This document shows, piece after piece, positions 3,721-6,464 of a DNA stretch of 6,881 nt. Numbering within the stretch: position 1 is the first letter of the stretch; the number at the start of each line of letters is the position of its first letter. Below the pieces are notes generated by a model, which was given only the letters and a program-made list of their open reading frames with translations, was not told where the DNA came from and made no database searches. Position numbers and translations under genes: made by a program. Source of the stretch: Bacteroidota bacterium (GTDB taxonomy: Bacteria; Bacteroidota; Ignavibacteria; Ignavibacteriales; Melioribacteraceae); assembly GCA_023381535.1 (NCBI GenBank), contig JAMCSN010000097.1:1-6881 (forward strand). Reading direction: 5' to 3'.

Positions 3721-4407
3721 TCACTTCAATCCGTTATTGATCATTAGAACAAACTCGCCTTTTAATTTATTCTCCGAAACGGTTTTCAAGATATCGCTTA
3801 CTTTTCCCCGGTAAAACTTTTCAGTGGGTAATGTTAGGTTAAACGCGACGCATATTTCGGTTGATGCGCCGAATATTTTTGAAACGTCGGTGAGAATTGC
3901 TGAAAGGCGGTATGGTGTTTCCATGAGTACGATCAGTTCTTTAATCCCCTTAAGTCTCAAAAGTTCTTTCTTTCGAATATCACTCTTTGGAGATAGCCAC
4001 CCGGCGTAATAAAATTTGTCTAACTTAAATCCCGAACCTACCAACGCGGGCAGTAATGAACTCGCGCCGGGCACAGGCACAACATCGATCTTGGCGTCTA
4101 TACATAAGCGAACCAAACTTGTTCCCGGATCGGAAAACAGCGGGGTGCCGCAATCGGAAATCAGCGCAGCGCTCTTTCCCTTGGCAATTGTAACAAATAT
4201 TTCTTGCGAAGATTCTTTTTCGTTGTGTTCGTTGAGCGTGACTAATTCTTTGTCGATTTGAAATTGGGAGAGGAGTCGTTTGGCTTCTTTGAACTCTTCG
4301 CAAATGATGAAGTCTACTTCTTTGAGGACGCTTAGCGCTCGAAGGGAAATGTCGTCGTAATTGCCGATTGGTGTGGAAACTATGTAGAGTTTATTGGCGG
4401 TTGTCAT
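3721..4407 (-). CDS. rsmI: RsmI-like 16S rRNA (cytidine-2'-O-)-methyltransferase, short divergent form
   Basis: A 228-residue SAM-dependent methyltransferase of the tetrapyrrole-methylase fold. RsmI 2'-O-methylates C1402 of 16S rRNA in the decoding centre. Visible motifs are LYIVSTPIGNYDDIS (7-21), ALISDCGTPLFSDPG (81-95), VPGASSLLPAL (112-122), GFKLDKFYYAGWL (126-138) and the terminal KGEFVLMI. Three differences from typical RsmI stand out. The usual AEDTR motif is CEEFKEA at 36-42, SDAGTP has become SDCGTP, and the protein stops right after KGEFV with no C-terminal helix-turn-helix extension (E. coli RsmI is nearly 290 residues). It may therefore be a distinct RsmI-like subfamily with changed specificity. 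The start codon overlaps the stop of the GIY-YIG gene (ATGA) and lies inside a palindromic repeat; no later Met precedes the TPIGN motif, so this start is secure. The regulator gene follows after 7 nt. Confidence 0.87.
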   Translation of the reverse strand: MTTANKLYIVSTPIGNYDDISLRALSVLKEVDFIICEEFKEAKRLLSQFQIDKELVTLNEHNEKESSQEIFVTIAKGKSAALISDCGTPLFSDPGTSLVRLCIDAKIDVVPVPGASSLLPALVGSGFKLDKFYYAGWLSPKSDIRKKELLRLKGIKELIVLMETPYRLSAILTDVSKIFGASTEICVAFNLTLPTEKFYRGKVSDILKTVSENKLKGEFVLMINNGLK

Positions 4408-4427
4408 GCTGAACTCGTTTCAGCATC
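4401..4427 (-). repeat. Palindromic repeat copy A, spanning a stop and a start codon
   Basis: On the minus strand the 27-nt unit begins GATGCTGAA, continues ACGAG, then TTCAGCAT and GACAA. An 8-bp perfect stem (ATGCTGAA with TTCAGCAT) encloses a 5-nt ACGAG loop. The unit encodes the last residues of the GIY-YIG protein (DAETSSA), its TGA stop, and the ATGACA start of the RsmI-like gene. Copy B lies in opposite orientation at 4726-4752. Confidence 0.85.
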
Positions 4428-4721
4428 TTTATCTCTATCATACCAATCCTTAGCCAGATCGGCCCAATCTTTATTTACTGATTCGATGAGATTGATTTTC
4501 CAATCACGATGCCAGTTCTTGAGTTGCTTTTCTCTCTTAATGGCAGAGTTTATATCTGAGGTCTCCTCGAAATATACGAGCTTTGTGATGTTATATTTTT
4601 TAGTAAATCCATCGAGAAGTTTTTCTTTATGTTCGTATACTCGTCGTTTTAAGTCGTTAGTAACGCCAACATAAAGAGTTTTTGATTTGTTGGTCATTAT
4701 ATATACGTAGTAATTTTTCAT
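4404..4721 (-). CDS. Small GIY-YIG nuclease-domain protein (UPF0213/YhbQ-like)
   Basis: A 105-residue protein made almost entirely of one GIY-YIG nuclease domain. The VYI and YVG halves of the signature lie in YYVYIMTN (4-11) and LYVGVTNDLKRRVYEHK (16-32), with catalytic-type Tyr17 and Arg26/Arg27. AIKREKQLKNW (60-70) supplies the expected Glu64, and WADL near 86-89 is the usual end of the domain. All key residues are present, so nuclease activity is possible; the cellular role of stand-alone members is unknown. The last seven residues, DAETSSA, and the stop are encoded by palindromic repeat copy A, a tail grafted on from repeat DNA. Copy B ends 4 nt before the start codon and leaves no good Shine-Dalgarno site. 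The stop overlaps the next start by 4 nt (ATGA), predicting translational coupling to the RsmI-like gene. Transcription probably comes from the proS promoter. Confidence 0.88.
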   Translation of the reverse strand: MKNYYVYIMTNKSKTLYVGVTNDLKRRVYEHKEKLLDGFTKKYNITKLVYFEETSDINSAIKREKQLKNWHRDWKINLIESVNKDWADLAKDWYDRDKDAETSSA

Positions 4722-4725
4722 AGTA

Positions 4726-4752
4726 GACCCCGAAACGAGTTCGGGGTGACAA
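4726..4752 (+). repeat. Palindromic repeat copy B, in the leader of the GIY-YIG gene
   Basis: On the plus strand it begins GACCCCGAA, continues ACGAG, then TTCGGGGT and GACAA. It matches copy A at 21 of 27 positions, including the entire loop and the GACAA flank. All six differences fall in three stem pairs and keep pairing intact (T-A to C-G, G-C to C-G, T-A to C-G). It lies between the proS stop and the nuclease start; no T-run follows, so it is not a typical terminator. Confidence 0.85.
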
Positions 4753-4766
4753 ATGAGAAATACAAG

Positions 4767-6464
4767 TTATACTAATTCTTTTACAGCAGAACCTAGATTA
4801 CTCAACTCAACTACTTTCTTTTCGTTTGTTGAGCGGAGTTTCAACTCAACGTTTCCGTTTTTCAAATTCTTCTCGCCCACAACGACTTGCAGAGGCATAC
4901 CGAGCAAGTCTGCATCGTTGAATTTGAATCCGGCGCTCACATCGTTTCGGTCATCGAACAAAACTTCGTAACCTTCACCAATCAATTCCAGATAAATTTT
5001 TTCACATGCGTCTGCGATAGTGCTGTTCTTCATGTTCAAACCAATTAAATGAATGTTGAACGGATTGAGCGGAGCTTTCCAGACAATTCCTTTCTCGTCG
5101 TAATTCTGTTCGATGAAACACGCTAAAATTCTTTCCACGCCGATTCCGTAGCTTCCCATCACGATCGGGTGCTCTTTTCCGTTCTCATCAAGATACATCA
5201 CGCCGAGTGCATCGGAGTATTTTGTGCCGAGTTTGAAAATGTGTCCGAGTTCAATCGCCTTGAATACATCCAGCGTAGAACCGCATCGTGTACATTTTTC
5301 GCCGGACACAACCGTGCGTAAATCGAAATATTCAACCTTCGGTACGTCTCGCTGCAAATCAATTCCGCCGAGATGGTAATCATTTTTGTTAGCGCCGCTG
5401 TAAAGATTGTTTCCGCCCTTTAACAAATTATCGGCAATAATTCTGTGTTTGAATCCTATTGGACCGATTGAACCGGCGTCCGCACCGGAAATTTCTTTCA
5501 GCTCTTCCGAATGGGCGGGACGAACATTTCCACCGAGTATTGAACCAAGTTTTGTTTCGTTCACCTCATCGTTGCCGAGCATCAGAACGAGAACAGGCTG
5601 TCCGTCATGAATATAAACTCTTGATTTGGCGGTTTCATGTTCGTGAATTTTTAAGAACTCACAAAGCTCATCAATGGATTTTACATTCGGCGTCGAAATT
5701 TCATAAGGCGTTTTACTTTCTTTATTTTGTTTTGCCTGCTCTGCAATCGATTGCGCGACTTCCACATTTGCGGCGTAACCGCATCCGGCAGCTGCCGGAT
5801 CGCAATACGCAACCGTGTCTTCGCCCGCATCGCTCTTCACCATAAACTCTTCAGATTTGCTGCCGCCCATCGCTCCGCTCGAAGCGCCGACAACAAAATA
5901 TTTCAATCCGCATCTATCGAAAATTGCGCGGTAAGCTTTATCATGAAGCGAATAGCCCACATCCAAGCCCGCAAAATCTTTATCGAGCGTGTAAGCATCT
6001 TTCATGATGAATTGTCTCCCGCGAATAACGCCGCTGCGCGGGCGCGGTTCATTTCTAAACTTAGTCTGAATCTGATACCAGATTTGCGGTAAATCTTTGT
6101 ATGAAACAAGCGAACCTTTAGCGTGGTAGGCGACAATTTCTTCGTGAGTGGGCGCTAAAACATAATCCCGATTCTTAATATGAAAAAGAATATCGCCGAA
6201 AGCTTCAACTCGTCCCGTCTGTTCCCAAATCTCTTTCGGGTTTAATCCGGGAAAATGAAATTCCTGTCCGCCAATCGCGTTCATTTCTTCGCGGATGATA
6301 TCCATTATTTTTCTGATGACTTTGTAACCCAGCGGAAGCCAAGAATAAATTCCGGCGGATAGCTGCCGCACCAATCCGGCACGGATCATTAGAATGTGGC
6401 TTGGAATAACCGCTTCCGAAGGCACTTCTTTTAATGTCGGGATGAAAGATTTACTCAGTCGCAT
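4767..6464 (-). CDS. proS: Prolyl-tRNA synthetase, bacterial type with INS editing domain
   Basis: A 565-residue class II synthetase that charges tRNA(Pro), of normal length for the bacterial form. Motif 1 lies around AGIYSWLPLGYKVIRKI (37-53). The motif 2 region has APTHEE (104-109) and FRNEPRPRSGVIRGRQF (136-152). Motif 3 is GSYGIGVERILA (437-448). The INS domain between motifs 2 and 3 (about 220-395) hydrolyses Ala-tRNA(Pro); its GSIGPIG loop (331-337), Lys280 (by eye the counterpart of E. coli Lys279) and His364 are present, so editing should be intact. The anticodon-binding domain runs from NPFNIHLIGLN to the C-terminus. A CTRCG motif (391-395) is typical, while the earlier cysteine pair is spread to C-x6-C (221, 228) by extra residues PAAA. 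The start has no clear Shine-Dalgarno sequence. A candidate promoter lies at 6496-6503, and the GIY-YIG and RsmI-like genes follow on the same strand. Confidence 0.97.
   Translation of the reverse strand: MRLSKSFIPTLKEVPSEAVIPSHILMIRAGLVRQLSAGIYSWLPLGYKVIRKIMDIIREEMNAIGGQEFHFPGLNPKEIWEQTGRVEAFGDILFHIKNRDYVLAPTHEEIVAYHAKGSLVSYKDLPQIWYQIQTKFRNEPRPRSGVIRGRQFIMKDAYTLDKDFAGLDVGYSLHDKAYRAIFDRCGLKYFVVGASSGAMGGSKSEEFMVKSDAGEDTVAYCDPAAAGCGYAANVEVAQSIAEQAKQNKESKTPYEISTPNVKSIDELCEFLKIHEHETAKSRVYIHDGQPVLVLMLGNDEVNETKLGSILGGNVRPAHSEELKEISGADAGSIGPIGFKHRIIADNLLKGGNNLYSGANKNDYHLGGIDLQRDVPKVEYFDLRTVVSGEKCTRCGSTLDVFKAIELGHIFKLGTKYSDALGVMYLDENGKEHPIVMGSYGIGVERILACFIEQNYDEKGIVWKAPLNPFNIHLIGLNMKNSTIADACEKIYLELIGEGYEVLFDDRNDVSAGFKFNDADLLGMPLQVVVGEKNLKNGNVELKLRSTNEKKVVELSNLGSAVKELV

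Follow-up and report, generated by a model that had tools for sequence, protein, structure and literature searches.

A GIY-YIG nuclease gene framed by TGTC-tagged hairpins as a probable minimal insertion element and candidate source of CGTC/TGTC REPs

The hairpin-framed nuclease gene between proS and rsmI

The locus described here raises a simple question: why is a short gene for a single-domain GIY-YIG nuclease, lying between proS and rsmI in a bacterium of the Ignavibacteria, bounded on both sides by inverted copies of one hairpin? The window (the whole 6,881-nucleotide stretch that was analysed, from contig JAMCSN010000097.1) holds the following features.

3721..4407, minus strand: rsmI (16S rRNA C1402 2'-O-methyltransferase; TIGR00096), downstream neighbour
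4402..4426, plus strand: downstream TGTC-tagged hairpin (tag 4402-4405, hairpin 4406-4426), tag outward
4404..4721, minus strand: GIY-YIG nuclease open reading frame, 105 aa, PF01541 (62.6 bits, 4.2e-17)
4402..4751, minus strand: proposed minimal mobile element of 350 bp (hairpin, GIY-YIG gene, hairpin), put forward for the window from its relatives
4727..4751, minus strand: upstream TGTC-tagged hairpin (tag 4751-4748, hairpin 4747-4727), tag outward, 5 nt before the nuclease ATG
4767..6464, minus strand: proS (proline-tRNA ligase), upstream neighbour

An earlier note on this DNA had described opposite-facing repeat copies bounding a single-domain GIY-YIG nuclease, with the same loop and flank and with three stem pairs changed so that pairing is kept. 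Both descriptions were borne out. The PF01541 gene is the sole gene of the unit at 4402-4751, the hairpin pair (4401-4428 and 4725-4752) is the first-ranked inverted repeat of the window (28 nt, 79% complementary), and the two copies are inverted relative to each other with their TGTC tags unpaired and pointing outward. Folding gave each hairpin an 8-bp stem with an A-T outer pair and the 5-nt loop ACGAG, at -7.1 and -8.7 kcal/mol (z -4.8 and -4.3), a stability equalled for each hairpin by 0 of 200 dinucleotide shuffles. Between the stems, ATGCTGAA/TTCAGCAT and ACCCCGAA/TTCGGGGT, five of the eight pairs are identical and three are changed on both sides (T-A to C-G, G-C to C-G and T-A to C-G); at the second pair, one copy has T-A and the other C-G. 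The hairpins share the flank TGACAA and have the tails CTT and CTA. Because they come from two copies alone, these compensatory changes are little proof in themselves, and the evidence lies in the relatives.

The downstream hairpin lies inside the nuclease gene, where it codes for the C-terminal DAETSSA and contains the stop codon. It also holds the rsmI start codon (4407-4405), and the nuclease stop and this start overlap as ATGA (4404-4407); owing to this overlap, rsmI may be translated from a start supplied by the hairpin. The RsmI N-terminus reads MTTANKLYIV in the window and MNSKLYIV in a relative (L161).

The tag-and-hairpin detector returned three places in the window, namely the two element hairpins and a hairpin of another repeat family at 241-265 (TGTC-CCCCTCCTTGGTAAGGAGGGG), in which TGTC also adjoins the stem. 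Positions 1-18 and 531-548 carry near-identical 18-mers (94%), one of them at the very start of the window, and their likeness is possibly an assembly-edge effect. No Rfam family reached its gathering score in the window.

Solved relatives of the nuclease are remote. The fold is common to UPF0213 (1zg2, E 9e-5) and, at greater distance, to Slx1 (6seh, E 6e-3); by profile the best UPF0213 structure scored 3e-5, too weak for the nuclease to be counted as close to UPF0213. An AlphaFold2 model has a mean pLDDT of 91. Across 170 genes, Y7 (169/170), Y17 (170/170), R27 (169/170), E64 (169/170) and N83 (168/169) are conserved, which we take to be the GIY-YIG active-site set of two tyrosines, an arginine, a glutamate and an asparagine. 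The retention of these positions in nearly all genes points to a functioning nuclease.

Association of the gene subfamily with outward tagged hairpins

A profile of 29 homologues identified at least 550 relatives among at least 592 pattern matches, with one genome per species, and the best 80 were taken for analysis of their surroundings. By record title, these best 80 of at least 550 span Ignavibacteria, Bacteroidetes, Planctomycetes, Cyanobacteria and Chloroflexi, together with candidate-phyla bacteria, Omnitrophota, Armatimonadota, Proteobacteria and others. The hairpins that accompany these relatives have highly variable stems (ATTCCCGCGAAAGCGGGAAT, ATTCTGAGCGAAGCGAAGAAT, ATGCTGAACTTGTTTCAGCAT and others) and a constant [CT]GTC tag. 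An outward hairpin pair frames 27 of 78 GIY-YIG genes from the best 80 and 0 of 472 other open reading frames of at least 100 aa at the same loci. Counted at the same 78 genes, upstream units are outward in 34 cases and inward in 7, and downstream units outward in 46 and inward in 13. At the best-80 loci, repeats are densest in the first 100 nt from the gene, at 5-6 per kb, and thin out to 2-3.3 per kb at 100-200 nt, to about 0.85 per kb at 200-500 nt and to about 0.1 per kb at 0.5-6 kb. The earlier note had asked whether repeats cluster beside short GIY-YIG genes; they do, and an even spread is contradicted by these densities.

Since the first detector demands the tag, the hairpin count was rerun with the tag requirement removed. 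Near the gene, 57/186 upstream and 70/239 downstream tag-free hairpins carried an outward tag, against 5/384 and 10/384 about 3 kb away. A reverse detector, which takes the tag [CT]GTCA first and the hairpin second, found a hairpin at 175/394 outward sites near the gene versus 67/1668 sites more than 1.5 kb away. Inward tagged sites near the gene are also above that background (upstream 23/109, downstream 47/125, together 70/234), so that hairpin arrays surround the gene. Of 170 distinct genes, 104 had at least one correctly oriented hairpin and 60 had both; 66 had none within the search distance.

At a distance from the gene, the tags point outward in 10 of 21 pairs of adjacent units; a second orientation count of 51/105 outward adjacent pairs was set aside, 19 of its loci having been chosen as dimers. 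Fifteen dimers were examined in one genome (G004), most of them with a conserved spacer. Twelve plasmid-collection loci included five with the full outward pair (L238, L239, L242, L244 and L247). The pattern is not universal: no tagged hairpin adjoins the GIY-YIG gene in Photobacterium, R. tumorigenes or Sinorhizobium K101, and in N. gonorrhoeae the tags point toward the gene. Among viral contigs, none of 58 pattern matches was a relative, and phages gave no match at 1e-10. Taken over these loci, the association of the GIY-YIG gene with outward tagged hairpins is real and widespread.

A survey of 245 genomes of a related class was less informative at the level of whole genomes. The window repeat type occurs in 47 of them, at 1-150 copies (a reversed-pattern control gave 0 in every genome), and a GIY-YIG match at 1e-15 occurs in 126. 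Repeats are present in 35/126 genomes with GIY-YIG and 12/119 without (OR 3.4, p 6e-4), and likewise in 44/195 genomes with a Y1 transposase (PF01797) and 3/50 without (OR 4.6, p 0.008). Co-occurrence is weak and, as Y1 transposases go with the repeat too, unspecific, and it was dropped as proof. The 12 of 47 repeat-positive genomes that lack a GIY-YIG match at 1e-15 include G224, with 150 repeats. Position gives the stronger test. Among the 98 repeat places listed from 18 genomes, 16 have a listed GIY-YIG gene no more than 500 nt away, against an expectation of 0.05; a single genome (G124) contributes 7 of these 16.

The association is specific to the subfamily. GIY-YIG genes of other subfamilies, labelled UPF0213-like by eye (20 tested of 30 places listed at 2e-18 or weaker in 36 genomes), had an outward hairpin in 0/20 cases and an inward one in 1/20. 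Window-type genes in those same 36 genomes had an outward hairpin in 49 of 87 and both in 32.

These observations bear on the reading that the protein is a host enzyme for DNA repair or structure processing, UvrC-like or Slx1-like, and that the nearby hairpins are regulatory or terminators. Small COG2827 proteins of Caulobacter, one of them with an SOS box, have been proposed as UvrC-like repair enzymes (PMC1839093). The nearest folds are UPF0213 (1zg2) and Slx1, a branched-DNA nuclease, and the translated hairpin, as D[AP]ExxSA, forms the protein end in 44 of 120 homologues listed, both of which suit a host function. We nevertheless regard it as very unlikely. A housekeeping role does not fit the patchy presence of the gene (126/245 genomes at 1e-15; 1-8 matches per genome at 1e-10, other subfamilies included) or the bare flanks of the other subfamilies in the same genomes, and it leaves the signs of mobility described below, empty sites and flanking direct repeats, unexplained.

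Hairpins are also matched to individual genes. Similarity was 0.81 between the upstream and downstream hairpins of one gene (60 genes), 0.57 between paralogues of the same genome (24 ordered pairs) and 0.52 between genomes. Within-genome shuffles were as good as the observed own-gene match in 16 of 5000 trials (15 genes, 6 genomes), and between genomes repeat similarity rises with protein identity (Mantel rho 0.27, 0/300 permutations, 104 genes). The likeness of own-gene hairpins, and the way in which repeat type tracks enzyme similarity, speak for an enzyme that recognises its own hairpin.

Empty sites and flanking direct repeats

Comparison of orthologous proS-rsmI junctions, suggested by the earlier note, found them element-free: proS and rsmI are adjacent in 26 of 30 relatives examined, with the element absent. 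A relative keeping the nuclease at this place without the repeats would have spoken against the pairing of the two, and 0/30 relatives have a GIY-YIG gene within about 1.5 kb of proS. One of the 30 (L167) holds a lone TGTC repeat at the junction. Several relatives among L161-L168 carry a different repeat in the spacer (CGCAAAGACGCAGAGAACGC ... TTTGCG), so the proS-rsmI spacer accepts several repeat families. The order represented by G005 was too distant to serve as a proS source (best identity 62%), and rsmI was not found beside proS in its 30 loci.

Empty sites are also clear elsewhere. Azospirillum lipoferum has the element between sufB and sufC, where it is absent from five sister species (A. 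ramasamyi, A. oryzae, A. sp. B510, A. thermophilum and A. argentinense). Within the genus Hanstruepera (Flavobacteriaceae, five genomes), G281 has 17 nt where G030 has 711 nt of hairpins and gene, the flanks being 90-91% identical, and the other three species of the genus also lack the element. In G280 an identical 23-nt sequence stands on either side of the element; G030 has this sequence once, with no hairpin, and at this place G281 has a lone double-tagged palindrome between diverged copies of the 23-nt sequence. In G012, three of seven copies examined share 364-381 nt, about the element length.

Two further observations concern insertion places. In L225 (G030), at about 629-680, a hairpin copy encloses in its loop a sequence that resembles the end of the upstream gene before its interruption (GTACCAAACT...), which is perhaps a trace of the insertion process. 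In Lacinutrix L041, Hanstruepera L230 and L376, the element lies at the 3' end of apparently the same gene and direct repeats cover the gene end; target preference or shared descent are both possible.

In S. meliloti Ak57 a complete element lies next to a copy with an internal deletion, the two being 89-93% alike; the corresponding place in Sinorhizobium K101 and M103 holds one double-tagged palindrome. Tandem and deleted copies bounded by hairpins suggest recombination between hairpins, as would be expected if the hairpins were hot spots that catch any small cargo and the nuclease were one passenger. Such indifference to cargo is at odds with the outward pair at none of the 472 other open reading frames and with the cognate specificity of hairpin and enzyme, and the hot-spot reading is disfavoured to the point of being highly improbable.

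Seven of 59 elements are immediately flanked by direct repeats of 19-67 nt (score of at least 12). Pairing with other loci gave an expectation of 0.03, and moving both flanks 140 nt further out gave 0. Hairpins were masked in this final count, because several earlier matches had been copies from hairpin arrays; one of the seven elements (L205) still lies in a repeat array. Examples are the repeats of 67 nt in L025 and 49 nt in L080, each with one mismatch. Gene-less dimers have weak direct repeats, and none were found at the window element. Target duplications of variable length are known for retroelements. The varying length of the direct repeats found here would fit offset nicks better than a transposase with a fixed stagger.

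GIY-YIG nucleases tied to their own spread are familiar from homing endonucleases of the I-TevI type and from the nuclease of Penelope-type elements. The window enzyme differs from both in being single-domain, with no separate DNA-binding or reverse-transcriptase domain, and the element differs in having hairpin ends and no intron or intein seen. A homing-type parasite could still be imagined, in which the gene invades existing hairpins by cutting and repair copying while the hairpins spread by other means. It would account for genes often lying amid further hairpins (the 2-3.3 per kb at 100-200 nt and about 0.85 per kb at 200-500 nt), for the lone double-tagged palindromes at matching places in Sinorhizobium K101 and M103 and in G281 (C14), and for the lone repeat at the L167 junction. 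Arrays and lone palindromes are thus explained, but the empty sites G281 C4 and G030 C13, which have no hairpin whatsoever, are not; moreover, the direct repeats sit outside the hairpins and the hairpin type tracks the individual gene within a genome. We consider invasion of pre-existing hairpins unlikely, though less so than a repair role.

We prefer to read the 350-bp unit as a minimal insertion element. Its nuclease would act on the hairpin ends, and the element would spread CGTC/TGTC REPs; on the evidence of the relatives this reading is probably correct. Like an insertion sequence, it has terminal inverted repeats around an enzyme gene, in the window and in relatives. Empty sites are clear in the relatives, and direct repeats accompany a subset of elements to which the window copy does not belong.

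Relation to CGTC-tagged REPs and a proposed mechanism

The hairpins resemble a known repeat superfamily. Di Nocera, De Gregorio and Rocco (2013) described CGTC-tagged REPs (TGTC also occurs) which, in the words of that paper, "apparently lack a dedicated transposase", and which include Neisseria dRS3 and Rickettsia RPE-4/RPE-6 (PMC3733652). As set out there, these REPs have an 8-9 bp stem opening with A-T, a second pair that is almost invariably AT, a loop of 4-5, a short tail (CCA in most, not all) and a habit of forming dimers (PMC3733652). The window hairpins agree in their TGTC tag, 8-bp A-T-first stem and 5-nt loop. They depart from the description in the tail, which is CTT or CTA instead of CCA, while CCA-like tails occur in relatives. 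A further difference is the enzyme: the 2013 paper found none and the term 'GIY' is absent from its main text (PMC3733652), whereas here a GIY-YIG gene is framed by such repeats. Three species named in the paper have a GIY-YIG gene among such repeats, namely Azospirillum lipoferum 4B, Sinorhizobium meliloti Ak57 (where the downstream unit differs by one base at the tag) and Novosphingobium aromaticivorans. Among the papers listed by open-access literature searches, we recognised none linking GIY-YIG genes to CGTC/TGTC REPs. The GIY-YIG nuclease is the likely enzyme of these REPs and a strong candidate for that role.

The earlier note had likened the layout to that of REPs and their transposase with a different enzyme class, and this comparison fits. 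As in the REP/RAYT system (REPtrons, REPINs), hairpins with a tetranucleotide tag form inverted pairs around one small nuclease gene, repeat types are cognate and gene-less dimers occur. The enzyme here is a GIY-YIG nuclease (PF01541) and not an HUH/Y1 tyrosine transposase, the tag is TGTC/CGTC and not GTAG, and some insertions have direct repeats. By analogy the window element would work like the REP/RAYT system; with enzyme and tag both different, it is not a member of it.

We infer the following course of events, in which recognition and cutting of the hairpin by the protein, its driving of movement and the order of the steps are all parts of the proposal. The nuclease would recognise its cognate hairpin through the tag and the folded stem, probably as a single strand or cruciform. 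It would then nick both the ends of the element and the target, after which host synthesis and ligation would finish the insertion and leave direct repeats that vary in length. Elements that lose their interior would give rise to hairpin dimers and single double-tagged palindromes, which would be the dispersed CGTC/TGTC REPs.

In its full extent the proposal is bolder, and we hold it with more reserve, leaning only somewhat in its favour. On this view, units of about 0.35-0.45 kb, which would rank with the smallest autonomous elements, would form a new class of transposable element in prokaryotes. Their sole enzyme would be a GIY-YIG nuclease that acts by hydrolysis on the tagged hairpin ends, and they would insert through offset nicks and host synthesis, not through a transposase. 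The element would then be the mobiliser that the CGTC/TGTC REP superfamily has lacked, and so the source of such hairpin repeats in bacteria of many phyla.

Should the nuclease be confirmed to cut and to drive movement, a new class of element would be established and a hydrolytic nuclease would be added to the kinds of enzyme by which DNA is spread in bacteria. A common short repeat would be explained, and convergent evolution with the REP/RAYT system would be indicated. The enzyme question of CGTC-tagged REPs, which the 2013 paper left without a known enzyme (PMC3733652), is now testable with one purified protein and one oligonucleotide.
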